Positions 26,800 through 62,960 of a stretch of DNA of 64,000 nucleotides are shown here, piece by piece. Origin of the DNA: Atopsyche davidsoni (Eukaryota; Arthropoda; Insecta; Trichoptera; Hydrobiosidae); the NCBI GenBank assembly GCA_022113835.1, contig JAILWY010000010.1, positions 3,187,501 through 3,251,500 on the forward strand, given 5' to 3'. Each line of letters begins with the position of its first letter. Within the stretch, counting starts at the first letter, position 1. A program made the translations under genes and the position numbers. The notes under the pieces were generated by a model. That model saw nothing but the letters and a program-made list of their open reading frames with translations, ran no database searches and was not told the origin of the DNA.

Positions 26800-26925
26800 G
26801 CCCCTGCGCCCCCAGGGTCCCCGGTCCCCAGAGCTCCGCCAGCCCGGGGACCCCGGCGGTCACCGGCTTTTCTGCAACGTCAATTTTACACATGGACAAT
26901 GATAAAATCGCGTTACGTTTTAAAC

Positions 26926-33303: not shown

Positions 33304-33719
33304 TTATTTCAAATAAATGATGCTATCCAAATGGTGACCGTTACGCTGCTGGCAACGAAGATTGCTGGGAACACGCTGACACATAGCCCTCGATATTGCT
33401 GCCATTTCTGACCTGATGTTTTGTTTCAATTCCGTTAGGTTCGTCGGATTATTCTCATAAACCCTACTTTTAAGGTATCTCCATACAATACAGTCAAGAG
33501 GGCTAAGGTCGGGGCTTCTGGGAGGCCAGTTGATGTTACCTTATTAGGGAATGATCCGTTGACAGCTTCAACAGATTGATTGGATGTATGGCAAGTTGGA
33601 ACCACGCGAAACTCCTGCAACTCTGCGCCCAAAAATTTACGCAGCATATCGCAATAACGCTCACTAAAACAAACACCCGATACGAAGCTTTCCAGAACGA
33701 GACAGTAATGAGACAGCAA
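33304..33719 (-). pseudogene. Tc1/mariner-type (DDE_3) transposase C-terminal fragment
   Basis: On the minus strand one frame reads ERYCDMLRKFLGAELQEF and then CHTSNQSVEAVNGSFP. After a frameshift near 33540 another frame reads NINWPPRSPDLSPLDCIVW, YLKSRVYENNP, and ends DSIIYLK with TAA at 33304-33306. The W-P-P-R-S-P-D-L-x-P-L-D block is the second catalytic-aspartate region of IS630/Tc1/mariner transposases. A possible element end lies near 33195 (GTGTGTCCAAAAAGAG). The N-terminal part is missing. Confidence 0.82.
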
Positions 33720-38915: not shown

Positions 38916-40626
38916 TCACCAATTGACTTTTTCACTGACTCCGATATCTACCGATGACATATCGGACGAGTCGTCAGAAGACTCGTCGCATCTGCCGGCA
39001 ATTACGGATGGGCCTTGGTGGGAATACAATGATTCGTTATCCTGAAATATAATATTTATTCAGTAAATTGTTTGAAAATTCAAATTTAAGGACAAAATCA
39101 AAGAAAAGTAATATGTTTACCGAGGTAATGTCGATAGTTTTGCGATGATCAATTTCGCCTCCCTGGGAAATTTTTAAAAGTATGTAAAACATGCGTATTA
39201 ATTGAAATATGTGAAAAGAGAAAATAAAAACACTTCATGCACAATTGATTCAAGTCATGCAGCGTGTCATGTAACTTACCCCATACCTAGAGACGCAGGT
39301 TGGGAAATTCTTATACAAATCGTCATCGTCATCTGACTGAAAAAAAAAATAGTAATTGAGTAAAGTCTAAAAAAAATCCGAATTTGTAGACAACATCAAA
39401 GATAAGTAAACTGTTTACATTAGTCAAGTCTATGACTTGTTTCAATTTTTTTATTCTGTCATCTTCGTTTGCTGGAGTATCGTCTTTGCATAGCTGAAAG
39501 ATTTTTATAATGAATGTGTAAAATGTATTAATTTGACTATGTGAAAACAGTGAAGAAAAACACTTCATGCACATTTGAATCGAGTTATGCAGCATGTCAT
39601 GCAACTTACTTCGAGCCAGGAGCGTACCATCTCTGGGTCGCGAGACATCTTTTCTAATATATCATAAAGCTCAGATATATCTCCCATCCTTTCTTGCCAT
39701 CGGAAATCAGCTTCCGAAAGCTGAAAAATTTTCATAGTGAGTATGTAAAATGTATTTATTTAAATATGAGAAAACATTCTTAATTGATTAAATGTTTTTT
39801 ATATGACGATAAACAGAAAAAACCAATTCTAGTTAGAACTGTCGTTAGTTTTCAAGTTGAACGCTACGCACGTGGCCTCTAGCGTCCGGGTTTTATACTG
39901 GAATTTAGAATGTATTAGCTCCCATAACTTCTTATTGGGAAATAAAGCCGTAATCTCCCGAGTTAATTGATCAAATCAAATATCAGTGGACACTGACAAA
40001 ATTCGGCATAATTCACCATCCAAGTATATTCGTTTTGACACGAAATATTCAACGCAAGCCAACAGCGCCGCCATTACAGGGACGCGGCGGGGACGCCATT
40101 TTGAAGTTGAGAATTTGAAAACTTTTTCACACCCTGATATTCCGCATAACATTGACACTTGCAACTCTACTCTCACTAATAAATACATGGAATTAACACA
40201 TACCTGCATAACCAAATTCGGATAGATTATTTCGACCATTCTACGAGGTGCTTTCGGCAATTTTCGACGACTGGTCGTAATGAAATTAAAAGATGGATAC
40301 GATTTATGCTCGTCTTCCTTTTGCCACCTACGAAAATTCACTGAAAACAACATACGGTGTCATTGCATGTCAATATATTTACATTATATACTTATAAAAT
40401 AGCATAAAATACGCAAAAACAATGCGATTGCGTATAGAAAGTAACACGCGGGAAAGCATCTACGAGCGCGTCGGCAGCGGAAAAGTTCGTTTCGCTCAGA
40501 CAAATTCGAGCTAGTCCGCCACAATTCCGCCCCCGGGTATCTCTACACGAGGCCCGAGCACTCGTGGACCTGCAATATATTATTAATTAACTAACCTCCA
40601 TGTTTGTATTCGGGTTGATCATCCAT
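38916..40626 (-). CDS. Array gene copy 1: seven-exon gene for an unknown 192-residue protein
   Basis: Coding exons in transcript order: 40596-40626 (ATG at 40624-40626; donor GTTAGT), 40204-40340, 39610-39720, 39419-39493, 39280-39336, 39121-39162, 38916-39041 (stop TGA). Every acceptor ends in CAG and donors are GTTAGT, GTATGT, GTAAGT or GTAAAC. The first intron is phase 1; all later ones are phase 0. The frame is open throughout: 11+45+37+25+19+14+41 residues. It starts MDDQPEYKHGVNFRRWQKED. The N-terminal half is basic (RRKLPKAPRR), the C-terminal half acidic with DDDDD and a DESSDDSSDMSSVD stretch suited to casein kinase 2. No signal peptide, membrane segment or known domain is seen. Five tandem copies and mostly silent differences in exon 6 support a real gene. 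Function unknown. Confidence 0.82.
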
Positions 40627-40730
40627 TTCAACGACGCTGTTGCACTTTTTAACTTGAAGACCGCTTTGCCGCCGGAGGGCGCGAGACTCGCGGCAGCGCA
40701 AATCTTGCTTTTTTTTTTCCTCCCAAACGG

Positions 40731-40738
40731 CTATATAG
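40731..40738 (-). promoter_or_regulatory. TATA box of gene copy 1
   Basis: CTATATAG lies 105 nt upstream of the ATG. A start site 25-30 nt downstream would fall at about 40700-40706 and give a short 5' UTR through a CpG-rich stretch. The same box is kept in all five units (45942, 51153, 56829, 61432). Similar boxes occur in degenerate form in the subrepeats further upstream. Confidence 0.6.
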
Positions 40739-40789
40739 TGAAGCGGTTTTATTGTTTATTGCTAAATTATTTTATTCAATTCGTTTAAT

Positions 40790-41313
40790 AGTTTTATTAG
40801 CGTTGTAATATTTTTAGGGTTAGCATATTAAATATTAGATTCAGTCTAATTCATAATATATTTTGCACTGTAAACTGTAATATTAATATATTTAGTCTCG
40901 CATGCTTCATGTGATTGTCTTTGGTTTGGAGCTTCTTAATTTGAATTTTAATTCGTTATTTCACGCGCAGGTCCTTTTGTTTTTTTTTTGATAAACGGCT
41001 ATTGAGTGACGCTTTCTTTTTTAAATTGAAAAATAATTTATTAAATTCGTTGAATATTTTAATAACGTAATGCACATTATTGATTTAAATGTGTTACGGC
41101 TTAACATATAAAATATAAGATTCAGTCTAATTCATCATATCTTATGCCGAAAACAATGCTTTAACTATAATTTTGACATATCAAATTTCGCATTCTTTTT
41201 GTGGATAGTCTTACGCCGGGGGCTTTCAAATTTTATTTGATGTATATGTTATTATTTTTTTTAATATTTTACGCAAATTACTAAATAGTTTAGACATGAA
41301 ATATATAAAATTA
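40790..41313 (-). repeat. Promoter-proximal subrepeats of unit 1
   Basis: Two related blocks share a marker phrase, ATTCAGTCTAATTCAT, about 270 bp apart. Each follows an AAACGGCTA-type phrase that also sits at the gene's TATA region. The unit ends inside the second block and is joined directly to the mariner fragment of unit 2. Confidence 0.75.
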
Positions 41314-41891
41314 ACACTATATTCTATTAAAAGTATTGTCCATCGCTAGCCACTACTTTTCCCCATCTTTCAGATAAATTGTGGATTCCATCCCAAAAGA
41401 ACTGTTCGTCTTTTGAAGCCAAGAAAGATCAATTCCCAATGATTCTGCTAGCTCTACTTGCGTTTGAAATGAGTTTTAATCGAGCAATGCCTCTAATTCT
41501 TCATCTTCGATTTTTTTTGGTTGGCCTGGACGTACATTGTCATCCACATCGAAATCACCATTGTTAAAGCGTCGATATCAGTTCTCACACGTTTTTTGTG
41601 ATGGAGCATGTTCACCATAAACTTCACTCAGCAATCAGTGACCTTCAGCTGGTTTTTTCTTCCAATTGAAACAGAAAAGTAAAGCTTCCCGCAAATTGCG
41701 TTTCGTTGGTACAAAAGTTGACATGCTGAGAGCTCAAAAAAAAATGATGTACACCTCAGCGATATGACATATACTGAAATCAAAAGCGCAATAATGACGC
41801 TTCACAATGAAATGTTAAAGTATAGCCTGATACTATTCAATACTAGTAACGCCATCTATTAGAAAATCCGAAAAATTAATGCACAACCGTA
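41314..41891 (-). mobile_element. Truncated mariner, unit 2
   Basis: The left inverted repeat is missing because the unit junction falls inside the element; the right end with TA is kept. This version retains the minus-strand segment RRFNNGDFDVDDNVRPGQP of the mariner N-terminal region, where units 1, 4 and 5 have a small deletion. Stops remain, so it is dead. Confidence 0.85.
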
Positions 41892-42326
41892 TACATTAAA
41901 ATTTCCGGTAAATACAGCTAGACTCAGGCCTCCGAGTCTCTGTGCAAGGCTTATATTTTCTATTTATTTGGATAGTAGTATGCGTATTTAATATACATAA
42001 GTTTATGCGGTAAATTGTACAATGCTGATTGAGTTAAAAGTGGCCAAAAGCATTAAATTCAACGTGAAGATATTTGTAACATAAGTTAAAACAACCCCAA
42101 AATCCGATTGCTATAATAATTCCACAGGTACACTGCATACATCACAACACAACTGGAACTGAAGTTTTTGTGTCTGTTTATTGTGATTGAAAATTAACAC
42201 GTAAGACTCATAGAATATGATGTTTAAAAGTAAAACACTTGTGTTTAAAATTCATCGTTTATCCAATTATTCAATATAAATTTTATTTCTCTCAAACATT
42301 TATAAACACTATTTTTAGTAAAATTA

Positions 42327-42679
42327 CTGCAATACTCCGCTTTACGCGAGGGATACATTCTGTGAAATTCGTGTATATCGGGATTTACGATTGAATATTG
42401 TATAGTCAAAACTTAATACAAATAAGTACGAATCACTTTATGCAGTATTACGTGTTATTTTTATTGAAAAATACATCTATTGTCTTTTATGTAGCGTTTA
42501 AATGCGTTCATAACACCCAACGCTGTTTTTAATATTTATGAGAAGTCAATTTACATTATGTTCATACACATTCTTAAAATAAGAAATTCGCGTAATGCGA
42601 GGCATTTTATTGCGACATTTGAAATTCGCGTTATAGTGAAACCGCGCATAACGGGGTCGCGTAAAGCGGGGTATTTCTG
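42327..42679. mobile_element. pogo-like MITE, unit 2
   Basis: Same element as in unit 1, with a point change at each end and a small internal deletion (353 bp). Confidence 0.78.
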
Positions 42680-44126
42680 AATATGTTTAATATTTCTTTT
42701 TACAAAACATCAAAATACTGAAATATGACATTGCATTATAAACGCAGTCTTGCCCATGGTCGGCGAGCTCCAGTAGTCTGCTTCTCCCACCCTGTCTCCC
42801 TGCCACCCACCCCTGGAGTTGAATACTTAACGCAGGGGTGGTGCAGAATGGCGTCTGCGGTGCTGATCTCGTATTGCCCAGCACACCTTGCTCTATACAC
42901 TTGGTATTGACCAGCCGTGCAGTCAGGGTAGCAAGTCTCCAGGGATATTCCCACTTACTTATAAAATCTGCCCATCACCCCGGCATGGCCGCATGAAGCC
43001 TTCACGCCTGGGCCAGAAGTCAAATCGTATGGATTTTAACTCAAAGTCAAGATATCATAAGTCAGGGGCAAAATAAAAAAGTCATTTAAATTTTACAATA
43101 AGCTTAAGTATATTTTAATGAAAGTAATTAAACACAAGTTATCTCATAAATCAGACAGAATTGCATAATCAAAAACATGCAGTATAAACAAAATGGTGAC
43201 CACCAAAAGGAAATTTTTACAAATACTTTAACAAAATCTTTTTACATAAGTTAAGCAAATAGTTTTAGTTTTATACATCCAACATTAATCAAAGCAGTGC
43301 AATCAAAAATTATCCACAGTATTTATTTATTTGACGCCTGGGCCAGAAGTCAAAATCGTCTGGATTTAAACTCAAAGTCATGGGGCAAAATAAAAAAAGT
43401 CATTTAAATTTTACAATAAGTTTAAGTAGTTTTTAATGAAAGTAATGAAACACAAGTTATCTCATAAAACAGACAAAATTGCATACACAAGGACATGCAG
43501 TATAAACAAATGGTGACCACCAAAAGGAAATTTTTACAAATACTTTAACAAAAAATTTTTACATAAGTTTAGCAAATAGTTTTAGTTTTATACATTCAAC
43601 ATTAATCAAAGCAGTGCAATCAAAAATTATCCACAGTATTTATTTAAAAAAGATATTTAATATATCCAGAAATGAAAGGCAAGCACTGGGGAATATAGGT
43701 TCTCTGGCTTTAACGGCTGCGTATCAATAACGGATTTTCGCAATCATGTGTACTGACTATTGTCAAGAATCTACACTTGAAAACAATATAAACGATATAT
43801 GACGATCACACTGACAATACACGAAATTTTCAACATTTATGTCTTATTCGACTTCATTGATAATAACAAAAGGAAGGTTGTAAATGTCTGTGAAAATCAA
43901 TATGAACAATTGTACATGAACAAGTATTGTAAATACTATATTTATATTGTAGATCGGTGTTTTCCAACCGTTTTGAATACGCGACCATTTGAAAGTTTAA
44001 AAAAACAGGCGCCTAGGCCTAGAGACTGAATAAAGCTGTCAGTGAACTTTATGACAAAACAAAAGATTTATAATCTGTATCGAACTAATTCGTCGAATAT
44101 TTTCTTCGTTCGGCAATTATTGAGAA

Positions 44127-45837
44127 TCACCAATTGACTTTTTCACTGACTCCGATATCTACCGATGACATATCGGACGAGTCGTCAGAAGACTCGTCGC
44201 ATCTGCCGGCAATTACGGATGGGCCTTGGTGGGAATACAATGATTCGTTATCCTGAAAAATAATATTTATTCAGTAAATTGTTTGAAAATTCAAATTTAA
44301 GGACAAAATCAAAGAAAAGTAATATGTTTACCGAGGTAATGTCGATAGTCTTACGGTGATCAATTTCGCCTCCCTGGGAAATTTTTAAAAGTATGTAAAA
44401 CATGCGTATTAATTGAAATATGTGAAAAGAGAAAATAAAAACACTTCATGCACAATTGATTCAAGTCATGCAGCGTGTCATGTAACTTACCCCATACCTA
44501 GAGACGCAGGTTGGGAAATTCTTATACAAATCGTCATCGTCATCTGACTGAAAAAAAAAATAGTAATTGAGTAAAGTCTAAAAAAAATCCGAATTTGTAG
44601 ACAACATCAAAGATAAGTAAACTGTTTACATTAGTCAAGTCTATGACTTGTTTCAATTTTTTTATTCTGTCATCTTCGTTTGCTGGAGTATCGTCTTTGC
44701 ATAGCTGAAAGATTTTTATAATGAATGTGTAAAATGTATTAATTTGACTATGTGAAAACAGTGAAGAAAAACACTTCATGCACATTTGAATCGAGTTATG
44801 CAGCATGTCATGCAACTTACTTCGAGCCAGGAGCGTACCATCTCTGGGTCGCGAGACATCTTTTCTAATAAATCATAAAGCTCAGATATATCTCCCATCC
44901 TTTCTTGCCATCGGAAATCAGCTTCCGAAAGCTGAAAAATTTTCATAGTGAGTATGTAAAATGTATTTATTTAAATATGAGAAAACATTCTTAATTGATT
45001 AAATGTTTTTTATATGACGATAAACAGAAAAAACCAATTCTAGTTAGAACTGTCGTTAATTTTCAAATTGAACGCTACGCACGTGGCCTCTAGCGTCCGG
45101 GTTTTATACTGGAATTTAGAATGTATTAGCTCCCATAACTTCTTATTGGGAAATAAAGCCGTAATCTCCCGAGTTAATTGATCAAATCAAATATCAGTGG
45201 ACACTGACAAAATTCGGCATAATTCACCATCCAAGTATATTCGTTTTGACACGAAATATTCAACGCAAGCCAACAGCGCCGCCATTACAGGGACGCGGCG
45301 GGGACGCCATTTTGAAGTTGAGAATTTGAAAACTTTTTCACACCCTGATATTCCGCATAACATTGACACTTGCAACTCTACTCTCACTAATAAATACATG
45401 GAATTAACACATACCTGCATAACCAAATTCGGATAGATTATTTCGACCATTCTACGAGGTGCTTTCGGCAATTTTCGACGACTGGTCGTAATGAAATTAA
45501 AAGATGGATACGATTTATGCTCGTCTTCCTTTTGCCACCTACGAAAATTCACTGAAAACAACATACGGTGTCATTGCATGTCAATATATTTACATTATAT
45601 ACTTATAAAATAGCATAAAATACGCAAAAACAATGCGATTGCGTATAGAAAGTAACACGCGGGAAAGCATCTACGAGCGCGTCGGCAGCGGAAAAGTTCG
45701 TTTCGCTCAGACAAATTCGAGCTAGTCCGCCACAATTCCGCCCCCGGGTATCTCTACACGAGGCCCGAGCACTCGTGGACCTGCAATATATTATTAATTA
45801 ACTAACCTCCATGTTTGTATTCGGGTTGATCATCCAT
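44127..45837 (-). CDS. Array gene copy 2: unknown 192-residue protein
   Basis: Exons in transcript order: 45807-45837, 45415-45551, 44821-44931, 44630-44704, 44491-44547, 44332-44373, 44127-44252. All splice sites and phases are as in copy 1. Against copy 1, exon 6 carries three changes, all synonymous (CAT/CAC, CGC/CGT, AAA/AAG codons). Exon 3 has one conservative isoleucine-to-leucine change, and exons 1, 2 and 7 appear identical. That pattern suits purifying selection plus recent homogenisation. Function unknown. Confidence 0.82.
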
Positions 45838-45941
45838 TTCAACGACGCTGTTGCACTTTTTAACTTGAAGACCGCTTTGCCGCCGGAGGGCGCGAGACTC
45901 GCGGCAGCGCAAATCTTGCTTTTTTTTTTCCTCCCAAACGG

Positions 45942-45949
45942 CTATATAG
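45942..45949 (-). promoter_or_regulatory. TATA box of gene copy 2
   Basis: CTATATAG at the same distance (105 nt) from the ATG as in copy 1. Confidence 0.58.
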
Positions 45950-46524
45950 TGAAGCGGTTTTATTGTTTATTGCTAAATTATTTTATTCAATTCGTTTAAT
46001 AGTTTTATTAGCGTTGTAATATTTTTAGGGTTAGCATATTAAATATTAGATTCAGTCTAATTCATAATATATTTTGCACTGTAAACTGTAATATTGATAT
46101 ATTTAGTCTCGCATGCTTCATGTGATTGTCTTTGGTTTGGAGCTTCTTAATTTGAATTTTAATTCGTTATTTCACGCGCAGGTCCTTTTGTTTTTTTTTT
46201 GATAAACGGCTATTGAGTGACGCTTTCTTTTTTAAATTGAAAAATAATTTATTAAATTCGTTGAATATTTTAATAACGTAATGCACATTATTGATTTAAA
46301 TGTGTTACGGCTTAACATATAAAATATAAGATTCAGTCTAATTCATCATATCTTATGCCGAAAACAATGCTTTAACTATAATTTTGACATATCAAATTTC
46401 GCATTCTTTTTGTGGATAGTCTTACGCCGGGGGCTTTCAAATTTTATTTGATGTATATGTTATTATTTTTTTTAATATTTTACGCAAATTACTAAATAGT
46501 TTAGACATGAAATATATAAAATTA

Positions 46525-47102
46525 ACACTATATTCTATTAAAAGTATTGTCCATCGCTAGCCACTACTTTTCCCCATCTTTCAGATAAATTGTGGATTCC
46601 ATCCCAAAAGAACTGTTCGTCTTTTGAAGCCAAGAAAGATCAATTCCCAATGATTCTGCTAGCTCTACTTGCGTTTGAAATGAGTTTTAATCGAGCAATG
46701 CCTCTAATTCTTCATCTTCGATTTTTTTTGGTTGGCCTGGACGTACATTGTCATCCACATCGAAATCACCATTGTTAAAGCGTCGATATCAGTTCTCACA
46801 CGTTTTTTGTGATGGAGCATGTTCACCATAAACTTCACTCAGCAATCAGTGACCTTCAGCTGGTTTTTTCTTCCAATTGAAACAGAAAAGTAAAGCTTCC
46901 CGCAAATTGCGTTTCGTTGGTACAAAAGTTGACATGCTGAGAGCTCAAAAAAAAATGATGTACACCTCAGCGATATGACATATACTGAAATCAAAAGCGC
47001 AATAATGACGCTTCACAATGAAATGTTAAAGTATAGCCTGATACTATTCAATACTAGTAACGCCATCTATTAGAAAATCCGAAAAATTAATGCACAACCG
47101 TA
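46525..47102 (-). mobile_element. Truncated mariner, unit 3
   Basis: Copy of the unit 2 version, lacking the left end. Confidence 0.85.
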
Positions 47103-47537
47103 TACATTAAAATTTCCGGTAAATACAGCTAGACTCAGGCCTCCGAGTCTCTGTGCAAGGCTTATATTTTCTATTTATTTGGATAGTAGTATGCGTATTT
47201 AATATACATAAGTTTATGCGGTAAATTGTACAATGCTGATTGAGTTAAAAGTGGCCAAAAGCATTAAATTCAACGTGAAGATATTTGTAACATAAGTTAA
47301 AACAACCCCAAAATCCGATTGCTATAATAATTCCACAGGTACACTGCATACATCACAACACAACTGGAACTGAAGTTTTTGTGTCTGTTTATTGTGATTG
47401 AAAATTAACACGTAAGACTCATAGAATATGATGTTTAAAAGTAAAACACTTGTGTTTAAAATTCATCGTTTATCCAATTATTCAATATAAATTTTATTTC
47501 TCTCAAACATTTATAAACACTATTTTTAGTAAAATTA

Positions 47538-47890
47538 CTGCAATACTCCGCTTTACGCGAGGGATACATTCTGTGAAATTCGTGTATATCGGGATTTACG
47601 ATTGAATATTGTATAGTCAAAACTTAATACAAATAAGTACGAATCACTTTATGCAGTATTACGTGTTATTTTTATTGAAAAATACATCTATTGTCTTTTA
47701 TGTAGCGTTTAAATGCGTTCATAACACCCAACGCTGTTTTTAATATTTATGAGAAGTCAATTTACATTATGTTCATACACATTCTTAAAATAAGAAATTC
47801 GCGTAATGCGAGGCATTTTATTGCGACATTTGAAATTCGCGTTATAGTGAAACCGCGCATAACGGGGTCGCGTAAAGCGGGGTATTTCTG
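47538..47890. mobile_element. pogo-like MITE, unit 3
   Basis: Identical in layout to the unit 2 copy. Confidence 0.78.
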
Positions 47891-49337
47891 AATATGTTTA
47901 ATATTTCTTTTTACAAAACATCAAAATACTGAAATATGACATTGCATTATAAACGCAGTCTTGCCCATGGTCGGCGAGCTCCAGTAGTCTGCTTCTCCCA
48001 CCCTGTCTCCCTGCCACCCACCCCTGGAGTTGAATACTTAACGCAGGGGTGGTGCAGAATGGCGTCTGCGGTGCTGATCTCGTATTGCCCAGCACACCTT
48101 GCTCTATACACTTGGTATTGACCAGCCGTGCAGTCAGGGTAGCAAGTCTCCAGGGATATTCCCACTTACTTATAAAATCTGCCCATCACCCCGGCATGGC
48201 CGCATGAAGCCTTCACGCCTGGGCCAGAAGTCAAATCGTATGGATTTTAACTCAAAGTCAAGATATCATAAGTCAGGGGCAAAATAAAAAAGTCATTTAA
48301 ATTTTACAATAAGCTTAAGTATATTTTAATGAAAGTAATTAAACACAAGTTATCTCATAAATCAGACAGAATTGCATAATCAAAAACATGCAGTATAAAC
48401 AAAATGGTGACCACCAAAAGGAAATTTTTACAAATACTTTAACAAAATCTTTTTACATAAGTTAAGCAAATAGTTTTAGTTTTATACATCCAACATTAAT
48501 CAAAGCAGTGCAATCAAAAATTATCCACAGTATTTATTTATTTGACGCCTGGGCCAGAAGTCAAAATCGTCTGGATTTAAACTCAAAGTCATGGGGCAAA
48601 ATAAAAAAAGTCATTTAAATTTTACAATAAGTTTAAGTAGTTTTTAATGAAAGTAATGAAACACAAGTTATCTCATAAAACAGACAAAATTGCATACACA
48701 AGGACATGCAGTATAAACAAATGGTGACCACCAAAAGGAAATTTTTACAAATACTTTAACAAAAAATTTTTACATAAGTTTAGCAAATAGTTTTAGTTTT
48801 ATACATTCAACATTAATCAAAGCAGTGCAATCAAAAATTATCCACAGTATTTATTTAAAAAAGATATTTAATATATCCAGAAATGAAAGGCAAGCACTGG
48901 GGAATATAGGTTCTCTGGCTTTAACGGCTGCGTATCAATAACGGATTTTCGCAATCATGTGTACTGACTATTGTCAAGAATCTACACTTGAAAACAATAT
49001 AAACGATATATGACGATCACACTGACAATACACGAAATTTTCAACATTTATGTCTTATTCGACTTCATTGATAATAACAAAAGGAAGGTTGTAAATGTCT
49101 GTGAAAATCAATATGAACAATTGTACATGAACAAGTATTGTAAATACTATATTTATATTGTAGATCGGTGTTTTCCAACCGTTTTGAATACGCGACCATT
49201 TGAAAGTTTAAAAAAACAGGCGCCTAGGCCTAGAGACTGAATAAAGCTGTCAGTGAACTTTATGACAAAACAAAAGATTTATAATCTGTATCGAACTAAT
49301 TCGTCGAATATTTTCTTCGTTCGGCAATTATTGAGAA

Positions 49338-51048
49338 TCACCAATTGACTTTTTCACTGACTCCGATATCTACCGATGACATATCGGACGAGTCGTCAGA
49401 AGACTCGTCGCATCTGCCGGCAATTACGGATGGGCCTTGGTGGGAATACAATGATTCGTTATCCTGAAAAATAATATTTATTCAGTAAATTGTTTGAAAA
49501 TTCAAATTTAAGGACAAAATCAAAGAAAAGTAATATGTTTACCGAGGTAATGTCGATAGTCTTACGGTGATCAATTTCGCCTCCCTGGGAAATTTTTAAA
49601 AGTATGTAAAACATGCGTATTAATTGAAATATGTGAAAAGAGAAAATAAAAACACTTCATGCACAATTGATTCAAGTCATGCAGCGTGTCATGTAACTTA
49701 CCCCATACCTAGAGACGCAGGTTGGGAAATTCTTATACAAATCGTCATCGTCATCTGACTGAAAAAAAAAATAGTAATTGAGTAAAGTCTAAAAAAAATC
49801 CGAATTTGTAGACAACATCAAAGATAAGTAAACTGTTTACATTAGTCAAGTCTATGACTTGTTTCAATTTTTTTATTCTGTCATCTTCGTTTGCTGGAGT
49901 ATCGTCTTTGCATAGCTGAAAGATTTTTATAATGAATGTGTAAAATGTATTAATTTGACTATGTGAAAACAGTGAAGAAAAACACTTCATGCACATTTGA
50001 ATCGAGTTATGCAGCATGTCATGCAACTTACTTCGAGCCAGGAGCGTACCATCTCTGGGTCGCGAGACATCTTTTCTAATAAATCATAAAGCTCAGATAT
50101 ATCTCCCATCCTTTCTTGCCATCGGAAATCAGCTTCCGAAAGCTGAAAAATTTTCATAGTGAGTATGTAAAATGTATTTATTTAAATATGAGAAAACATT
50201 CTTAATTGATTAAATGTTTTTTATATGACGATAAACAGAAAAAACCAATTCTAGTTAGAACTGTCGTTAATTTTCAAATTGAACGCTACGCACGTGGCCT
50301 CTAGCGTCCGGGTTTTATACTGGAATTTAGAATGTATTAGCTCCCATAACTTCTTATTGGGAAATAAAGCCGTAATCTCCCGAGTTAATTGATCAAATCA
50401 AATATCAGTGGACACTGACAAAATTCGGCATAATTCACCATCCAAGTATATTCGTTTTGACACGAAATATTCAACGCAAGCCAACAGCGCCGCCATTACA
50501 GGGACGCGGCGGGGACGCCATTTTGAAGTTGAGAATTTGAAAACTTTTTCACACCCTGATATTCCGCATAACATTGACACTTGCAACTCTACTCTCACTA
50601 ATAAATACATGGAATTAACACATACCTGCATAACCAAATTCGGATAGATTATTTCGACCATTCTACGAGGTGCTTTCGGCAATTTTCGACGACTGGTCGT
50701 AATGAAATTAAAAGATGGATACGATTTATGCTCGTCTTCCTTTTGCCACCTACGAAAATTCACTGAAAACAACATACGGTGTCATTGCATGTCAATATAT
50801 TTACATTATATACTTATAAAATAGCATAAAATACGCAAAAACAATGCGATTGCGTATAGAAAGTAACACGCGGGAAAGCATCTACGAGCGCGTCGGCAGC
50901 GGAAAAGTTCGTTTCGCTCAGACAAATTCGAGCTAGTCCGCCACAATTCCGCCCCCGGGTATCTCTACACGAGGCCCGAGCACTCGTGGACCTGCAATAT
51001 ATTATTAATTAACTAACCTCCATGTTTGTATTCGGGTTGATCATCCAT
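49338..51048 (-). CDS. Array gene copy 3: unknown 192-residue protein
   Basis: Exons in transcript order: 51018-51048, 50626-50762, 50032-50142, 49841-49915, 49702-49758, 49543-49584, 49338-49463. I see no coding difference from copy 2. Its upstream region differs: it has two additional promoter subrepeats (about 51.72-52.52 kb), so any difference in expression from copy 2 would point to those subrepeats. Confidence 0.82.
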
Positions 51049-51152
51049 TTCAACGACGCTGTTGCACTTTTTAACTTGAAGACCGCTTTGCCGCCGGAGG
51101 GCGCGAGACTCGCGGCAGCGCAAATCTTGCTTTTTTTTTTCCTCCCAAACGG

Positions 51153-51160
51153 CTATATAG
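51153..51160 (-). promoter_or_regulatory. TATA box of gene copy 3
   Basis: CTATATAG, 105 nt upstream of the ATG. Confidence 0.58.
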
Positions 51161-51179
51161 TGAAGCGGTTTTATTGTTT

Positions 51180-52520
51180 ATTGCTAAATTATTTTATTCA
51201 ATTCGTTTAATAGTTTTATTAGCGTTGTAATATTTTTAGGGTTAGCATATTAAATATTAGATTCAGTCTAATTCATAATATATTTTGCACTGTAAACTGT
51301 AATATTGATATATTTAGTCTCGCATGCTTCATGTGATTGTCTTTGGTTTGGAGCTTCTTAATTTGAATTTTAATTCGTTATTTCACGCGCAGGTCCTTTT
51401 GTTTTTTTTTTGATAAACGGCTATTGAGTGACGCTTTCTTTTTTAAATTGAAAAATAATTTATTAAATTCGTTGAATATTTTAATAACGTAATGCACATT
51501 ATTGATTTAAATGTGTTACGGCTTAACATATAAAATATAAGATTCAGTCTAATTCATCATATCTTATGCCGAAAACAATGCTTTAACTATAATTTTGACA
51601 TATCAAATTCGCATTCTTTTTGTGGATAGTCTTACGCCGGGGGCTTTCAAATTTTATTTGATGTATATGTTATTATTTTTTTTAATATTTTACGCAAATT
51701 CCTACATAGTTTAGACATGAAATATATAAAATTAAAAAAACTGCCCCGTGACACGAATTAATTATCACAATGCCTGGTGAGATGGCGCGGGGCACTCGAA
51801 TTGCAGATCATGTTGTTTTTTTTGTGTCAAACGGCTATTTTTCAATTGAATTATTTATTTCGTTGAATATTTTAATGACGCAATGCACATTATTGATTTA
51901 AATATGTTACGGCTTAACATATAAAATATAAGATTCAGTCTAATTCATTGTATCTTATACCGAAAACAATGCTTTAACTATAATTTTGACATATCAAATT
52001 TCGCATCATTTTTGTGATAGTCCTACGCTGGGGGCTTTTATATTTTAATTAATGTATATGTTATTATTTTTTTGTAATAATGTACGCAAATTCCTATTAA
52101 GTTTAGGCATAAAAACATATAAAATCAATAAAAACTGACCCGTGACACTAATTAATTATCACAATGCTTGGTGAGATGGCGCGGGGCACTCGAATTGCAG
52201 ATCATGTTGTTTTTTCTGTGACAAACGGCTACTTTTCAATTGAATTATTTATTTCGTTGAATATTTTAATGACGTAATGCACATTATTGATTTAAATATG
52301 TTACGGCTTAGCATATAAAATATAAGATTCAGTCTAATTCATCATATCTTATGCCGAAAACAATGCTTTAACTATGATTTTGACATATCAAATTTCGCAT
52401 TCTTTTTGTGGATAGTCTTACGCCGGGGGCTTTCAAATTTTATTTGATGTATATGTTATTTTTTTTTTAAATATTTTACGCAAATTCCTACATAGTTTAG
52501 ACAAGAAATATATAAAATTA
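51180..52520 (-). repeat. Expanded promoter-like subrepeats, unit 3
   Basis: The marker ATTCAGTCTAATTCAT recurs at 51261, 51542, 51933 and 52327, spacings of 281, 391 and 394 bp. The longer blocks include GAGATGGCGCGGGGCACTCG followed by a T run and AAACGGCTA, mirroring the order seen at the gene's own promoter. Confidence 0.8.
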
Positions 52521-53077
52521 ACACTATATTCTATTCAAAGTGTTGTCCATCGCTAGCCACTACTTTTCCCCATCTTTCAGATAAATTGTGGATTCCATCC
52601 CAAAAGAACTGTTCGTCTTTTGAAGCCAAGAAAGATCAATTCCCAATGATTCTGCGAGCTCTACTTGCGTTTGAAATGAGTCTTTATCGAGCAATGCCTC
52701 TAATTTTTCATCTTCGATATTTTTTGTTTGGCCTGGACGTTATTTATCAACCACGTCGAAATCAGTTCTCACACGTTTTTTGTGATGGAGTATGTTCACC
52801 ATAAACTTCACTCAGCAAACAGTGACCTTCAGCTGGTTTTTTCTTTCAATTGAAACAGAAAAGTAAAGCTTCCCGCAAATTGCGTTTCGTTGGTACAAAA
52901 GTTGACATGCTGAGAGCTCAAAAAAAAATGATGCATACACTTCAGCGATATGACATATACTGAAATCAAAAGCGCAATAATGACGCTTCACAATGAAATG
53001 TTAAAGTATAGCCTGATACTATTCAATACTAGTAACGCCATCTATTAGAAAATCCGAAAAATTAATGCACAACCGTA
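52521..53077 (-). mobile_element. Truncated mariner, unit 4
   Basis: Lacks the left end and has the same small deletion as the unit 1 element. Confidence 0.85.
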
Positions 53078-53510
53078 TACATTAAAATTTCCGGTAAATA
53101 CAGCTAGACTCAGGCCTCCGAGTCTCTGTGCAAGGCTTATATTTTCTATTTATTTGGATAGTAGTATGCGTATTTAATATACATAAGTTTATGCGATAAA
53201 TTGTACAATGCTGATTGAGTTAAAAGTGGCCAAAAGCATTAAATTCAACGTGAAGATATTTGTAACATAAGTTAAAACAACCCCAAAATCCGATTGCTAT
53301 AATAATTCCACAGGTACACTGCATACATCACAACACAACTGGAACTGAAGTTTTTGTGTCTGTTTATTGTGATTGAAAATTAACACGTAAGACTCATAGA
53401 ATATGATGTTTAAAAGTAAAACACTTGTGTTTAAAATTCATCGTTTATCCAATTATTCAATATAAATTTTATTTCTCTCAAACATTTATAAACTATTTTT
53501 AGTAAAATTA

Positions 53511-53877
53511 CTGTAATACTCCGCTTTACGCGAGGGATACATTCTGTGAAATTCGTGTATATCGGGACTTACGATTAAATATTGTATAGTCAAAACTTAA
53601 TACAAAAAAGTACGAATCACTTATGCAGTATTACGTGTTATTTTTATTGAAAAATACATTTATTATCTTTTATGTAGCGTTTCTTTGCGTTCTTGTAAAA
53701 TGCGTTCATAACAACCAACGCTGTTTTTAATATTTATGAGAAGTCAATTTACATTATGTTCATACACATTCTTAAAATAAGAAATTCGCGTAATGCGAGG
53801 CATTTTATTGCGACATTTGAAATTCGCGTTATAGTGAAACCGCGCATAATGGGGTCGCGTAAAGCGGGGTATTACTG
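53511..53877. mobile_element. pogo-like MITE, unit 4
   Basis: Same ends as unit 1, still flanked by TA. A short insertion lies near 53682-53700. Confidence 0.78.
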
Positions 53878-55014
53878 TATATGTTTAACATTTTTTTTTA
53901 CAAAACATCAAAATACTGAAATATGATATTGCATTATAAACGCAGTCTTGCCCATGGTCGGCGAGCTCCAGTAGTCTGCTTCTCCCACCCTGTCTCCCTG
54001 CCACCCACCCCTGGAGTTGAATACTTAACGCAGGGGTGGTGCAGAATGGCGTCTGCGGTGCTGATCTCGTATTGCCCAGCACACCTTGCTCTATACACTT
54101 GGTATTGACCAGCCGTGCAGTCAGGGTAGCAAGTCTCCAGGGATATTCCCACTTACTTATAAAATCTGCCCATCACCCCGGCATGGCCGCATGAAGCCTT
54201 CACGCCTGGGCCAGAAGTCAAATCGTATGGATTTAAACTCAAAGTCAAGATATCATAAGTCAGGGGCAAAATAAAAAAGTCATTTAAATTTTACAATAAG
54301 CTTAAGTAATTTTTAATGAAAGTAATTAAACACAAGGTATCTCATATCTCATAAAATAGACAGAATTGCATAAACAAAAACATGCAGTATAAATAAATTG
54401 GTGACCACCAAAAGGAAATTTTTACAAATACTTTAACAAAAACTTTTTACACAAGTTTAGCAAATAGTTATAGTTTTATACATTCAACATTAATCAAAGC
54501 AGTGCAATCAAAAATTATCCACAGTATTTATTTAAAAAAGATATTTAATATATCCAGAAATGAAAGGCAAGCACTGGGGAATATAGGTTCTCTGGCTTTA
54601 ACGGCTGCGTATCAATAACGGATTTTCGCAATCATGTGTACTGACTATTGTCAAGAATCTACACTTGAAAACAATATAAACGATATATGACGATCACACT
54701 GACAATACACGAAATTTTCAACATTTATGTCTTATTCGACTTCATTGATAATAACAAAAGGAAGGTTGTAAATGTCTGTGAAAATCAATATGAACAATTG
54801 TACATGAACAAGTATTTTAAATACTATATTTATATTGTAGATCGGTGTTTTCCAACCGTTTTGAATACGCGACCATTTGAAAGTTTAAAAAAACAGGCGC
54901 CTAGGCCTAGAGACTGAATAAAGCTGTCAGTGAGCTTTATGACAAAACAAAAGATTAATAATCTGTATCGAACTAATTCGTCGAATATTCTCTTCGGTCG
55001 GCAATTATTGAGAA

Positions 55015-56724
55015 TCACCAATTGACTTTTTCACTGACTCCGATATCTACCGATGACATATCGGACGAGTCGTCAGAAGACTCGTCGCATCTGCCGGCAA
55101 TTACGGATGGGCCTTGGTGGGAATACAATGATTCGTTATCCTGAAAAATAATATTTATTCAGTAAATTGTTTGAAAATTCAAATTTAAGGACAAAATCAA
55201 AGAAAAGTAATATGTTTACCGAGGTAATGTCGATAGTCTTACGGTGATCAATTTCGCCTCCCTGGGAAATTTTTAAAAGTATGTAAAACATGCGTATTAA
55301 TTGAAATATGTGAAAAGAGAAAATAAAAACACTTCATGCACAATTGATTCAAGTCATGCAGCGTGTCATGTAACTTACCCCATACCTAGAGACGCAGGTT
55401 GGGAAATTCTTATACAAATCGTCATCGTCATCTGACTGAAAAAAAAATAGTAATTGAGTAAAGTCTAAAAAAAATCCAAATTTGTAGACAACATCAAAGA
55501 TAAGTAAACTGTTTACATATGTCAAGTCTATGACTTGTTTATTTTTTTTTATTCTGTCATCTTCGTCTGCTGGAGTATCGTCTTTGCATAGCTGAAAGAT
55601 TTTTATAATGAATGTGTAAAATGTATTAATTTGACTATGTGAAAACAGTGAAGAAAAACACTTCATGCACATTTGAATCGAGTTATGCAGCATGTCATGC
55701 AACTTACTTCGAGCCAGGAGCGTACCATCTCTGGGTCGCGAGACATCTTTTCTAATAAATCATAAAGCTCAGATATATCTCCCATCCTTTCTTGCCATCG
55801 GAAATCAGCTTCCGAAAGCTGAAAAATTTTCATAGTGAGTATGTAAAATGTATTTATTTAAATATGAGAAAACATTCTTAATTGATTAAATGTTTTTTAT
55901 ATGACGATAAACAGAAAAAACCAATTCTAGTTAGAACTGTCGTTAATTTTCAAATTGAACGCTACGCACGTGGCCTCTAGCGTCCGGGTTTTATACTGGA
56001 ATTTAGAATGTATTAGCTCCCATAACTTCTTATTGGGAAATAAAGCCGTAATCTCCCGAGTTAATTGATCAAATCAAATATCAGTGGACACTGACAAAAT
56101 TCGGCATAATTCACCATCCAAGTATATTCGTTTTGACACGAAATATTCAACGCAAGCCAACAGCGCCGCCATTACAGGGACGCGGCGGGGACGCCATTTT
56201 GAAGTTGAGAATTTGAAAACTTTTTCACACCCTGATATTCCGCATAACATTGACACTTGCAACTCTACTCTCACTAATAAATACATGGAATTAACACATA
56301 CCTGCATAACCAAATTCGGATAGATTATTTCGACCATTCTACGAGGTGCTTTCGGCAATTTTCGACGACTGGTCGTAATGAAATTAAAAGATGGATACGA
56401 TTTATGCTCGTCTTCCTTTTGCCACCTACGAAAATTCACTGAAAACAACATACGGTGTCATTGCATGTCAATATATTTACATTATATACTTATAAAATAG
56501 CATAAAATACGCAAAAACAATGCGATTGCGTATAGAAAGTAACACGCGGGAAAGCATCTACGAGCGCGTCGGCAGCGGAAAAGTTCGTTTCGCTCAGACA
56601 AATTCGAGCTAGTCCGCCACAATTCCGCCCCCGGGTATCTCTACACGAGGCCCGAGCACTCGTGGACCTGCAATATATTATTAATTAACTAACCTCCATG
56701 TTTGTATTCGGGTTGATCATCCAT
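55015..56724 (-). CDS. Array gene copy 4: unknown 192-residue protein, divergent exon 4
   Basis: Exons in transcript order: 56694-56724, 56302-56438, 55708-55818, 55517-55591, 55379-55435, 55220-55261, 55015-55140. All junctions stay in phase. Exon 4 has three amino acid changes against copies 1-3 (N to D, L to N, N to Y) and one silent change, while exon 2 is unchanged. The intron between exons 4 and 5 is one nucleotide shorter, which fuses the two exons into one open frame, so failure to splice it would still be translatable here only. Confidence 0.82.
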
Positions 56725-56828
56725 TTCAACGACGCTGTTGCACTTTTTAACTTGAAGACCGCTTTGCCGCCGGAGGGCGCGAGACTCGCGGCAGCGCAAA
56801 TCTTGCTTTTTTTTTTCCTCCCAAACGG

Positions 56829-56836
56829 CTATATAG
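56829..56836 (-). promoter_or_regulatory. TATA box of gene copy 4
   Basis: CTATATAG, 105 nt upstream of the ATG. Confidence 0.58.
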
Positions 56837-56855
56837 TGAAGCGGTTTTATTGTTT

Positions 56856-58196
56856 ATTGCTAAATTATTTTATTCAATTCGTTTAATAGTTTTATTAGCG
56901 TTGTAATATTTTTAGGGTTAGCATATTAAATATTAGATTCAGTCTAATTCATAATATATTTTGCACTGTAAACTGTAATATTGATATATTTAGTCTCGCA
57001 TGCTTCATGTGATTGTCTTTGGTTTGGAGCTTCTTAATTTGAATTTTAATTCGTTATTTCACGCGCAGGTCCTTTTGTTTTTTTTTTGATAAACGGCTAT
57101 TGAGTGACGCTTTCTTTTTTAAATTGAAAAATAATTTATTAAATTCGTTGAATATTTTAATAACGTAATGCACATTATTGATTTAAATGTGTTACGGCTT
57201 AACATATAAAATATAAGATTCAGTCTAATTCATCATATCTTATGCCGAAAACAATGCTTTAACTATAATTTTGACATATCAAATTCGCATTCTTTTTGTG
57301 GATAGTCTTACGCCGGGGGCTTTCAAATTTTATTTGATGTATATGTTATTATTTTTTTTAATATTTTACGCAAATTCCTACATAGTTTAGACATGAAATA
57401 TATAAAATTAAAAAAACTGCCCCGTGACACGAATTAATTATCACAATGCCTGGTGAGATGGCGCGGGGCACTCGAATTGCAGATCATGTTGTTTTTTTTG
57501 TGTCAAACGGCTATTTTTCAATTGAATTATTTATTTCGTTGAATATTTTAATGACGCAATGCACATTATTGATTTAAATATGTTACGGCTTAACATATAA
57601 AATATAAGATTCAGTCTAATTCATTGTATCTTATACCGAAAACAATGCTTTAACTATAATTTTGACATATCAAATTTCGCATCATTTTTGTGATAGTCCT
57701 ACGCTGGGGGCTTTTATATTTTAATTAATGTATATGTTATTATTTTTTTGTAATAATGTACGCAAATTCCTATTAAGTTTAGGCATAAAAACATATAAAA
57801 TCAATAAAAACTGACCCGTGACACTAATTAATTATCACAATGCTTGGTGAGATGGCGCGGGGCACTCGAATTGCAGATCATGTTGTTTTTTCTGTGACAA
57901 ACGGCTACTTTTCAATTGAATTATTTATTTCGTTGAATATTTTAATGACGTAATGCACATTATTGATTTAAATATGTTACGGCTTAGCATATAAAATATA
58001 AGATTCAGTCTAATTCATCATATCTTATGCCGAAAACAATGCTTTAACTATGATTTTGACATATCAAATTTCGCATTCTTTTTGTGGATAGTCTTACGCC
58101 GGGGGCTTTCAAATTTTATTTGATGTATATGTTATTTTTTTTTTAAATATTTTACGCAAATTCCTACATAGTTTAGACAAGAAATATATAAAATTA
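56856..58196 (-). repeat. Expanded promoter-like subrepeats, unit 4
   Basis: Same arrangement as in unit 3 at a 5676-bp offset: one short and two long blocks before the unit junction. Confidence 0.8.
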
Positions 58197-58753
58197 ACAC
58201 TATATTCTATTCAAAGTGTTGTCCATCGCTAGCCACTACTTTTCCCCATCTTTCAGATAAATTGTGGATTCCATCCCAAAAGAACTGTTCGTCTTTTGAA
58301 GCCAAGAAAGATCAATTCCCAATGATTCTGCGAGCTCTACTTGCGTTTGAAATGAGTCTTTATCGAGCAATGCCTCTAATTTTTCATCTTCGATATTTTT
58401 TGTTTGGCCTGGACGTTATTTATCAACCACGTCGAAATCAGTTCTCACACGTTTTTTGTGATGGAGTATGTTCACCATAAACTTCACTCAGCAAACAGTG
58501 ACCTTCAGCTGGTTTTTTCTTTCAATTGAAACAGAAAAGTAAAGCTTCCCGCAAATTGCGTTTCGTTGGTACAAAAGTTGACATGCTGAGAGCTCAAAAA
58601 AAAATGATGCATACACTTCAGCGATATGACATATACTGAAATCAAAAGCGCAATAATGACGCTTCACAATGAAATGTTAAAGTATAGCCTGATACTATTC
58701 AATACTAGTAACGCCATCTATTAGAAAATCCGAAAAATTAATGCACAACCGTA
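58197..58753 (-). mobile_element. Truncated mariner, unit 5
   Basis: Copy of the unit 4 version. Confidence 0.85.
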
Positions 58754-59186
58754 TACATTAAAATTTCCGGTAAATACAGCTAGACTCAGGCCTCCGAGTC
58801 TCTGTGCAAGGCTTATATTTTCTATTTATTTGGATAGTAGTATGCGTATTTAATATACATAAGTTTATGCGATAAATTGTACAATGCTGATTGAGTTAAA
58901 AGTGGCCAAAAGCATTAAATTCAACGTGAAGATATTTGTAACATAAGTTAAAACAACCCCAAAATCCGATTGCTATAATAATTCCACAGGTACACTGCAT
59001 ACATCACAACACAACTGGAACTGAAGTTTTTGTGTCTGTTTATTGTGATTGAAAATTAACACGTAAGACTCATAGAATATGATGTTTAAAAGTAAAACAC
59101 TTGTGTTTAAAATTCATCGTTTATCCAATTATTCAATATAAATTTTATTTCTCTCAAACATTTATAAACTATTTTTAGTAAAATTA

Positions 59187-59553
59187 CTGTAATACTCCGC
59201 TTTACGCGAGGGATACATTCTGTGAAATTCGTGTATATCGGGACTTACGATTAAATATTGTATAGTCAAAACTTAATACAAAAAAGTACGAATCACTTAT
59301 GCAGTATTACGTGTTATTTTTATTGAAAAATACATTTATTATCTTTTATGTAGCGTTTCTTTGCGTTCTTGTAAAATGCGTTCATAACAACCAACGCTGT
59401 TTTTAATATTTATGAGAAGTCAATTTACATTATGTTCATACACATTCTTAAAATAAGAAATTCGCGTAATGCGAGGCATTTTATTGCGACATTTGAAATT
59501 CGCGTTATAGTGAAACCGCGCATAATGGGGTCGCGTAAAGCGGGGTATTACTG
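59187..59553. mobile_element. pogo-like MITE, unit 5
   Basis: Copy of the unit 4 element. Confidence 0.78.
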
Positions 59554-60690
59554 TATATGTTTAACATTTTTTTTTACAAAACATCAAAATACTGAAATAT
59601 GATATTGCATTATAAACGCAGTCTTGCCCATGGTCGGCGAGCTCCAGTAGTCTGCTTCTCCCACCCTGTCTCCCTGCCACCCACCCCTGGAGTTGAATAC
59701 TTAACGCAGGGGTGGTGCAGAATGGCGTCTGCGGTGCTGATCTCGTATTGCCCAGCACACCTTGCTCTATACACTTGGTATTGACCAGCCGTGCAGTCAG
59801 GGTAGCAAGTCTCCAGGGATATTCCCACTTACTTATAAAATCTGCCCATCACCCCGGCATGGCCGCATGAAGCCTTCACGCCTGGGCCAGAAGTCAAATC
59901 GTATGGATTTAAACTCAAAGTCAAGATATCATAAGTCAGGGGCAAAATAAAAAAGTCATTTAAATTTTACAATAAGCTTAAGTAATTTTTAATGAAAGTA
60001 ATTAAACACAAGGTATCTCATATCTCATAAAATAGACAGAATTGCATAAACAAAAACATGCAGTATAAATAAATTGGTGACCACCAAAAGGAAATTTTTA
60101 CAAATACTTTAACAAAAACTTTTTACACAAGTTTAGCAAATAGTTATAGTTTTATACATTCAACATTAATCAAAGCAGTGCAATCAAAAATTATCCACAG
60201 TATTTATTTAAAAAAGATATTTAATATATCCAGAAATGAAAGGCAAGCACTGGGGAATATAGGTTCTCTGGCTTTAACGGCTGCGTATCAATAACGGATT
60301 TTCGCAATCATGTGTACTGACTATTGTCAAGAATCTACACTTGAAAACAATATAAACGATATATGACGATCACACTGACAATACACGAAATTTTCAACAT
60401 TTATGTCTTATTCGACTTCATTGATAATAACAAAAGGAAGGTTGTAAATGTCTGTGAAAATCAATATGAACAATTGTACATGAACAAGTATTTTAAATAC
60501 TATATTTATATTGTAGATCGGTGTTTTCCAACCGTTTTGAATACGCGACCATTTGAAAGTTTAAAAAAACAGGCGCCTAGGCCTAGAGACTGAATAAAGC
60601 TGTCAGTGAGCTTTATGACAAAACAAAAGATTAATAATCTGTATCGAACTAATTCGTCGAATATTCTCTTCGGTCGGCAATTATTGAGAA

Positions 60691-61327
60691 TCACCAATTG
60701 ACTTTTTCACTGACTCCGATATCTACCGATGACATATCGGACGAGTCGTCAGAAGACTCGTCGCATCTGCCGGCAATTACGGATGGGCCTTGGTGGGAAT
60801 ACAATGATTCGTTATCCTGAAAAATAATATTTATTCAGTAAATTGTTTGAAAATTCAAATTTAAGGACAAAATCAAAGAAAAGTAATATGTTTACCGAGG
60901 TAATGTCGATAGTCTTACGGTGATCAATTTCGCCTCCCTGGGAAATTTTTAAAAGTATGTAAAACATGCGACTGGTCGTAATGAAATTAAAAGATGGATA
61001 CGATTTATGTTCGTCATCCTTTTGCCACCTACGAAAATTCACTGAAAACAACATACGGTGTCATTGCATGTCAATATATTTACATTATATACTTATAAAA
61101 TAGCATAAAATACGCAAAAACAATGCGATTGCGTATAGAAAGTAACACGCGGGAAAGCATCTACGAGCGCGTCGGCAGCGGAAAAGTTCGTTTCGCTCAG
61201 ACAAATTCGAGCTAGTCCGCCACAATTCCGCCCCCGGGTATCTCTACACGAGGCCCGAGCACTCGTGGACCTGCAATATATTATTAATTAACTAACCTCC
61301 ATGTTTGTATTCGGGTTGATCATCCAT
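60691..61327 (-). CDS. Array gene copy 5: shortened in-frame variant, 100 residues
   Basis: Exon 1 is 61297-61327 and the last exon 60691-60816. Between them exon 2 (from 61041) is cut after FITTSR and joined, through ten codons of former intron ending at the old acceptor, to exon 6. The result is one fused exon, 60896-61041 (146 nt). Exon 1 plus this exon is 177 nt, a multiple of three, so the whole frame stays open. Exons 3, 4 and 5 are lost. One E-to-D change lies in exon 2. It may be a pseudogene that happens to be open or a functional short form. Confidence 0.6.
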
Positions 61328-61454: not shown

Positions 61455-62960
61455 GTTTATTGCTAAATTATTTTATTCAATTCGTTTAATAGTTTTATTA
61501 GCGTTGTAATATATTTAGGGTTAGCATATTAAATATTAGATTCAGTCTAATTCATAATATATTTTGCACTGTAAACTGTAATATTGATATATTTAATCTG
61601 GCATGCTTCATGTGATTGTCTTTGGTTTGGAGCTTCTTAATTTGAATTTGAATTCGTTATTTCACGCGCAGGTCCTTTTGTTTTTTTTTTGATAAACGGC
61701 TATTGAGTGACGCTTTCTTTTTTAAATTGAAAAATAATTTATTAAATTCGTTGAATGTTTTAATGACGTAATGCACATTATTGATTTAAATATGTTACGG
61801 CTTAACATATAAAATATAAGATTCAGTCTAATTCATCATATCTTATGCCGAAAACAATGCTTTAACTATAATTTTGACATATCAAATTCGCATTCTTTTT
61901 GTGGATAGTCTTACGCCGGGGGCTTTCAAATTTTATTTGATGTATATGTTATTATTTTTTTTAATATTTTACGCAAATTCCCACATAGTTTAGACATAAA
62001 ATATATAAAATTAAAAAAACTGCCCCGTGACACGAATTAATTATCACAATGCCTGGTGAGATGGCGCGGGGCACTCGAATTGCAGATCATGTTGTTTTTT
62101 CTGTGACAAACGGCTATTTTTCAATTGAATTATTTATTTCGTTGAATATTTTAATGACGCAATGCACATTGTTGATTTAAATATGTTACGGCTTAACATA
62201 TAAAATATATGATTCAGTCTAATTCATTGTATCTTATACCGAAAACAATGCTTTTAATATAATTTTGACATATCAAATTTCGCATCATTTTTGTGATAGT
62301 CCTACGCTGGGGGCTTTTATATTTTTTATTCATGTATATGTTATTATTTTTTTGTAATATTGTACGCAAATTCCTATTAAGTTTAGGCACAAAAACATAT
62401 AAAATCAATAAAAACTGACCCGTGACACTAATTAATTATCACAATGCCTGGTGAGATGGCGCGGGGCACTCGAATTGCAGGTCTTTTTGTTTTTTTCTGT
62501 GACCAACGGCTATTTTTAAATTTAATTATTTATTTATTTTGTTGAATATTTTAATGACGTAATGCACATTATTGATTTAAATATTTTACGGCTTAACATA
62601 TAAAATATAAGATTCAGTCTAATTCAATGTATCTTATGCCGAAAACTATGCTTTAACTATAATTTTGACATATCAAATTTCGCATTCCTTTTGTGATAGC
62701 TTTACGCTGGGGGCTTTATAATATTAATTTGTGTAATTTTTTTTTTTTTTTTTTTAATGTTTTACGCTAATTACTATTTCGTTTAGGCTTGAAATATATT
62801 TAATTAAAAAAACTGACACGTGACACAAATTAATTATCACAATACCTGAAGGGATGGCGCGGGGCTCGCCTTAGAGCAGGTCCTATTTTTTTTTTCTCCC
62901 AATCAGCTATAAAGTGAAGCGGTTTTTTTTTTTAAGTTGAAAATCATTTAATAATATCCG
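61455..62960 (-). repeat. Terminal, progressively diverged promoter-like subrepeats
   Basis: The marker phrase lies at 61540, 61821, 62212 and 62612, and the GATGGCGCGGGGC block at about 62051, 62455 and 62843. The blocks grow less alike toward the right. The last (about 62843-62935) has a T run and AGCTATAAAGTGAAGCGG, close to the gene's own TATA region, although no gene follows it. Confidence 0.78.

Follow-up and report, generated by a model that had tools for sequence, protein, structure and literature searches.

A head-to-tail array in the genome of the trichopteran Atopsyche davidsoni carries five minus-strand copies of a seven-exon gene, of which four are intact and the fifth is shortened. 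The array spans approximately 36.4 to 62.9 kb of a 64,000-nucleotide stretch of contig JAILWY010000010.1 (the window; positions are counted from its first letter), with unit spacings of 5,211, 5,211, 5,676 and 4,603 bp, and the genes run from the stop codon of copy 1 at 38916 to the ATG of copy 5 at 61327. Exon ends were placed by 14 sequence anchors, 7 of which match five copies and 6 match four. The remaining anchor, at the end of exon 4, matches only copies 1 to 3; copy 4 is altered there, and its exon 4 was read by offset. The exons of copy 1 (38916–40626) lie at 40626–40596, 40340–40204, 39720–39610, 39493–39419, 39336–39280, 39162–39121 and 39041–38916. In copy 2 (44127–45837) every exon is displaced from its counterpart in copy 1 by 5,211 bp and in copy 3 (49338–51048) by 10,422 bp, and copy 4 occupies 55015–56724, with exon 4 at 55591–55517.

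In each of copies 1 to 4, exons of 31, 137, 111, 75, 57, 42 and 126 nucleotides (nt) are separated by six GT-AG introns with junction phases 1, 0, 0, 0, 0 and 0, and the joined exons amount to 579 nt, i.e., 192 residues and a stop codon. This agrees with the initial annotation, which had described six phase-consistent junctions in these copies, a 192-residue product and short coding exons (31–137 nt) in tandem on the minus strand. Its count of five gene copies holds for the loci, but the fifth has lost approximately 1.07 kb, comprising the end of exon 2, exons 3 to 5 and part of intron 5. As it stands, copy 5 (60691–61327) has an open frame of 100 residues, made up of exon 1 (61297–61327), a 146-nt exon in which exon 2', the tail of intron 5 and exon 6 are fused (60896–61041), and exon 7 (60691–60816). 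Elsewhere in the window, tblastn finds no further gene copy, with only matches of E 1.8 or worse outside the genes.

The introns of this gene resemble one another in pairs. From splice site to splice site, intron 3 (39609–39494 in copy 1) and intron 5 (39279–39163) are identical at 94 of 115 bases, starting with GTAAGTT and ending in CAG, and intron 4 (39418–39337) and intron 6 (39120–39042) at 60 of 79 bases, from GTAAACA to CAG. Each pair scores higher than 300 shuffles, at z 17 for the first and z 10 for the second. The first pair is also clear in nhmmer searches (E 7.5e-13), while the second is weak (E 0.019 when searched from intron 6 and 0.97 from intron 4). Intron 2, at its 3' end, also shows a relationship to introns 3 and 5 (z 6.7 and 4.6, respectively). 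Within the gene, a module made up of an intron A, an exon and an intron B has probably been duplicated, giving module 1 (intron 3, exon 4 and intron 4; 39337–39609, minus strand) and module 2 (intron 5, exon 6 and intron 6; 39042–39279, minus strand). Since the edges of the duplicated module coincide with splice sites, the latter are supported independently of the reading frame.

The exons do not share this likeness. At the nucleotide level, exons 4 and 6 and exons 3 and 5 align no better than shuffles (z 0.5 and -0.4), with 25 of 41 and 30 of 50 bases identical in the best alignments; if exon homology is assumed, these identities are below the pooled intron value of 154/194 (binomial 0.005 and 0.001). 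The protein similarity of exon 4 to exon 6 gives 0.0235 by shuffling. A third module made of exons 2, 5 and 7 was also considered but is not claimed, given shuffling values of 0.026 (exons 2 and 5), 0.0985 (exons 5 and 7) and 0.95 (exons 2 and 7).

What both modules have in common, at the same place, is an I-D-[LI]-T core followed by acidic residues, within a stretch that is encoded on either side of intron B, by the last part of one exon and the first part of the next. In the first motif (39313–39442, minus strand), intron 4 separates KQVIDLTN from SDDDDDLY; in the second, weaker one (39024–39144, minus strand), intron 6 separates RKTIDITS from DNESLY, the second core lying approximately 33 residues after the first. 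Of the two motifs, the product of copy 5 would retain the second alone. The score of KQVIDLTN against RKTIDITS is equalled or exceeded by 10 of 15,576 octamer pairs. Two occurrences of [VI]D[VIL]T followed by acidic residues are found in a fraction of 2e-5 of 200,000 protein shuffles, for a pattern that was picked after seeing the sequence. Taken with the unlike exons, this suggests that the sequence around the cores changed fast while the cores were kept.

Cores of this type resemble SUMO-interacting motifs (SIMs), and the SIMs of PIAS proteins take the IDLT form. In the account of SIMs given in PMC12751080, the motif is a four-residue core with typically at least three hydrophobic residues beside acidic or phosphorylatable residues, CK2 can phosphorylate SIMs, and SIMs present in several copies can bind polySUMO through avidity. 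Of the motifs here, the first, VIDLTNSDDDDD, has VIDL followed by acidic residues (VIDLT and then SDDDDD) and corresponds to that definition. The comparison suggests that the two motifs are SIMs, one good and one weak, and from them we infer SUMO binding by the protein.

The initial annotation had assigned the protein a basic N-terminal half, which is correct for residues 1–56 (net charge +4) and not for residues 57–118 (-6); residues 119–192 have a net charge of -11. The CK2-like acidic tail that was also proposed is indeed acidic and serine-rich, with S-x-x-D sites (DESSDDSSDMSSVD; 38946–38987, minus strand), with the refinement that part of the acidic sequence follows the IDLT and IDIT cores. 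Seven S/T-x-x-D/E sites are present in the whole protein. Modelled alone, exon 3 is predicted to form two helices with a mean predicted local distance difference test (pLDDT) score of 85, and exon 2 gives a poorer model (pLDDT 73). The start of the protein does not resemble a signal peptide, the top mean hydropathy of any 9-mer near the N-terminus being 0.17. A limited search for alternative first exons over 1.26 kb upstream of exon 2, considering ATG-to-donor stretches of 25–200 nt, revealed no hydrophobic candidate, and the only two stretches that fit the phase and donor patterns were exon 1 itself and one of 8 residues. The lack of a signal peptide and of a hydrophobic upstream exon argues against secretion.

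Searches for relatives revealed none. As the initial annotation had stated, no known domain is recognisable: Pfam returns a single sub-threshold coiled-coil match (E 0.095) and no RING. The exon 3 model has 0 Foldseek matches in the PDB, and a PDB sequence search with the 192-residue protein gave four matches with E values of 0.7–5, which we judged to be due to chance. Among 5.8 billion predicted proteins, 29 candidates were obtained, none at E ≤ 10, and none of 8 pattern-matching stretches in viral contigs was confirmed. As a control, a 78-residue transposase-like open reading frame (ORF) of the window was run against the same protein collection and had 3 relatives (49–78% identical); given this low number, similar genomes are thinly represented, making the absence of relatives of the gene weak evidence.

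We next consider how the copies differ. Copies 2 and 3 show 0 differences across the compared gene region, and since the copies are nearly identical, the agreement of four of them is close to one observation. From ATG to stop, copy 4 is distinguished from copies 2 and 3 by seven substitutions and a one-base deletion. Six of the substitutions are in exon 4, around an unchanged VIDLT core both flanks of which are altered; intron 4 holds the other substitution and the deletion. That intron (55436–55516, minus strand) is 81 nt long and open in frame, and its retention would keep the frame, unlike that of the 82-nt intron 4 of copies 1 to 3, which would break it. Across copies 1 to 4, variable sites number 10 in 579 exon positions versus 4 in 1,132 intron positions (Fisher p 0.007), a value that overstates the contrast because the sites are clustered and not independent, exon 4 of copy 4 accounting for six of the changes and exon 6 of copy 1 for three, all synonymous. 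The clustered changes look like short conversion tracts. Between copies 1 and 3 there are three synonymous changes and a single nonsynonymous one (I/L), and between copies 3 and 4 there are one synonymous and five nonsynonymous changes.

Upstream of each gene lies a subrepeat with a period of approximately 394 bp, present as one copy before genes 1 (41018–41314, minus strand) and 2 (46229–46525) and as about three before genes 3 (51440–52521), 4 (57116–58197) and 5 (61719–62865), as if promoter-proximal DNA had been multiplied. A diverged, gene-proximal relative of this subrepeat adjoins gene 1 (40748–40960, minus strand; 163 of 243 aligned columns identical). Judged by eye, the segment at 41350–41724 (minus strand) and its repeats are a fragment of a mariner-like transposase, interrupted by one or more internal stops; a repeat match at 36415 starts opposite 41302, near the edge of this fragment. 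Downstream of genes 2 and 3, a 317-bp tandem repeat is present in 1.9 copies (43059–43646 and 48270–48857), and Tandem Repeats Finder lists none at the corresponding position for the other genes. A scan for bacterial-type promoters was uninformative for an animal gene.

Further away, 33307–33540 (minus strand) is the transposase-like ORF used above as a control, with its three relatives in the protein collection and a sub-threshold DDE_3 match; this was the only Pfam match among ten neighbouring ORFs chosen by eye from 94, the other nine being without a match. A GC-rich minisatellite at 26589–26806 (30-bp unit, 7.2 copies, 98% match) sits in the one listed ORF that runs from start to stop over 150 residues or more. 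Rfam tRNA matches at 20266–20338 (minus strand) and 21482–21542 (plus strand), not called by ARAGORN with bacterial settings, are possibly tRNA-derived repeats.

The gene is probably real, and the family is best read as lineage-restricted and recently amplified. Tentatively, we favour the view that its product is a small SUMO-binding adaptor that is not secreted. In this view the first motif, possibly together with the second, would act as a SIM tuned by CK2 phosphorylation of nearby serines, while the N-terminal part, with its short basic stretch and the predicted helical hairpin of exon 3, would contact a partner. The protein might then deliver this partner to SUMOylated complexes in the nucleus, or else compete for them, and tandem amplification would raise its dose. 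A bolder version, which we consider unlikely, is that these genes represent an undescribed arthropod family whose products are minimal SUMO-binding proteins. A SIM-bearing module would first have been duplicated in the gene and the gene then amplified, with the exons around the cores outpacing the introns, and the product would serve as a SUMO reader or decoy in an arms race, the opponent being transposons, a parasite or a selfish chromosome.

Several results weigh against the SUMO-binding adaptor. The second core, TIDIT, has two rather than three Val, Leu or Ile residues and falls short of the usual SIM definition as worded in PMC12751080. A general SIM pattern matches the first motif only, with at least one match in 28% of shuffles, and querying PDB sequences with that motif gives 0 matches at E ≤ 10. 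The protein similarity of joined exons 4 and 5 to joined exons 6 and 7 is borderline (0.0585 by shuffling), and the counts of changes among the copies are not skewed in the way expected of positive selection acting now. The gene model itself was compared with chance via the longest spliceable open chain under loose splice rules, in two settings with 100 dinucleotide shuffles each. Chains of at least 579 nt occur in 12/100 and 4/100 shuffles. The longest chains of the real sequence, of 882 and 699 nt, are reached by 0/100 and 2/100 shuffles, but they run through introns and are longer than the seven-exon model, and the stricter acceptor setting leaves out three of the model's own six acceptors. 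Taken alone, the open frame is thus modest evidence. The GC contrast is also limited to introns 3 to 6 (19–30%, compared to 33–48% in exons 4 to 7), as introns 1 and 2 (43% and 36%) resemble exons 1 to 3 (39–45%).

In the two remaining forward frames, the joined exons contain 9 and 18 stops. Stronger support for the gene model comes from the homology of introns 3 and 5 and of introns 4 and 6, bounded as it is by the predicted splice sites.

Of the alternatives, the one that survives best is a dying or never-functional array, in which a gene fragment was duplicated along with transposon-like and satellite-like DNA, is unexpressed and carries its motifs by chance. We regard this as possible, if less probable than a functional SUMO-binding adaptor. 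It would account for the lack of homologues in the collections searched, for the one broken copy out of five, for the 4–12 chains of 579 nt per 100 shuffles, and for the ratio of five nonsynonymous changes to one synonymous change in exon 4 of copy 4. It fits less well with four copies that are intact at every splice site, with the three synonymous changes and single I/L exchange between copies 1 and 3, with intron homologies that end at splice sites, and with an I-D-[LI]-T core kept at the same place in both modules.

A gene involved in germline or sex-chromosome conflict, for example in sperm chromatin or as a drive element or suppressor, and amplified for dose, is a doubtful proposition on present evidence, and one that is compatible with SUMO binding. 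Near-identical tandem copies and a short orphan protein with a basic start and an acidic tail would suit such a role, and multicopy gene families in conflict are on record as the subject of PMC9917458, PMC6690552 and PMC10618873. However, near-identical tandem copies also arise without conflict.

Mobile introns provide a different explanation for the intron pairs: two families of intron-making elements would have inserted without any module duplication. Likeness that runs through introns and is absent from the flanking exons is the signature used for calling introners in PMC9860276, and is observed here. Still, we consider this improbable. There are only two pairs, in one gene, in the order A-B-A-B, which is most simply the product of one duplication, and the core beside intron B is common to both modules. 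Moreover, introns 3 to 6 are unmatched elsewhere in the window by nhmmer (none at E ≤ 1, in a search that recovers the introns of the array), and blastn gives short AT-rich matches only, the best with E 0.002 over 39 columns at the intron 2 end.

Aphid bicycle proteins carry a signal peptide and paired C-Y-C motifs, and neither is found in the 192 residues here. The bicycle genes are similar in being orphan sequences whose gene structure outlasts the coding sequence, as described in PMC9168663. The salivary SSSGP genes of the Hessian fly, as presented in PMC2955719, likewise form a tandem cluster with noncoding sequence more conserved than coding sequence; there, the contrast of like introns and unlike exons is between genes that encode a signal peptide, whereas the present contrast is mainly one between modules of a single gene. 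A gene of either kind for a secreted effector or salivary product, with conserved introns and diversified exons, thus has the tandem cluster and the conserved noncoding sequence in its favour but is the least probable of the alternatives, given a protein without a signal peptide and a limited upstream search that yields only exon 1 itself and an 8-residue stretch. The ASSET process of snake venom genes, in the description of PMC2711939, also turns exon segments into unrelated sequence, but concerns venom proteins, and there is no evidence of positive selection here.

With regard to function, the proposed SUMO-binding adaptor is closest to multi-SIM SUMO readers such as RNF4, to which PMC12751080 ascribes four SIMs, in having a hydrophobic core followed by acidic residues and a second, similar core. 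It differs in that the second core is weak and that the protein is an orphan without RING or any other domain in Pfam; a SUMO-targeted ubiquitin ligase, which has a RING beside several SIMs, would be expected to show the former. No SIM or SUMO gene family of this kind was seen among the papers listed by searches of the open-licence PMC literature.

The family illustrates how such genes can escape both a reading based on long ORFs and protein homology searches. If expressed, it would be a small and clear example of a gene assembled by repeating a SUMO-binding-like module, with the record of the duplication preserved in the introns and not in the exons, and it would make SUMO-dependent conflict in arthropods accessible to testing.

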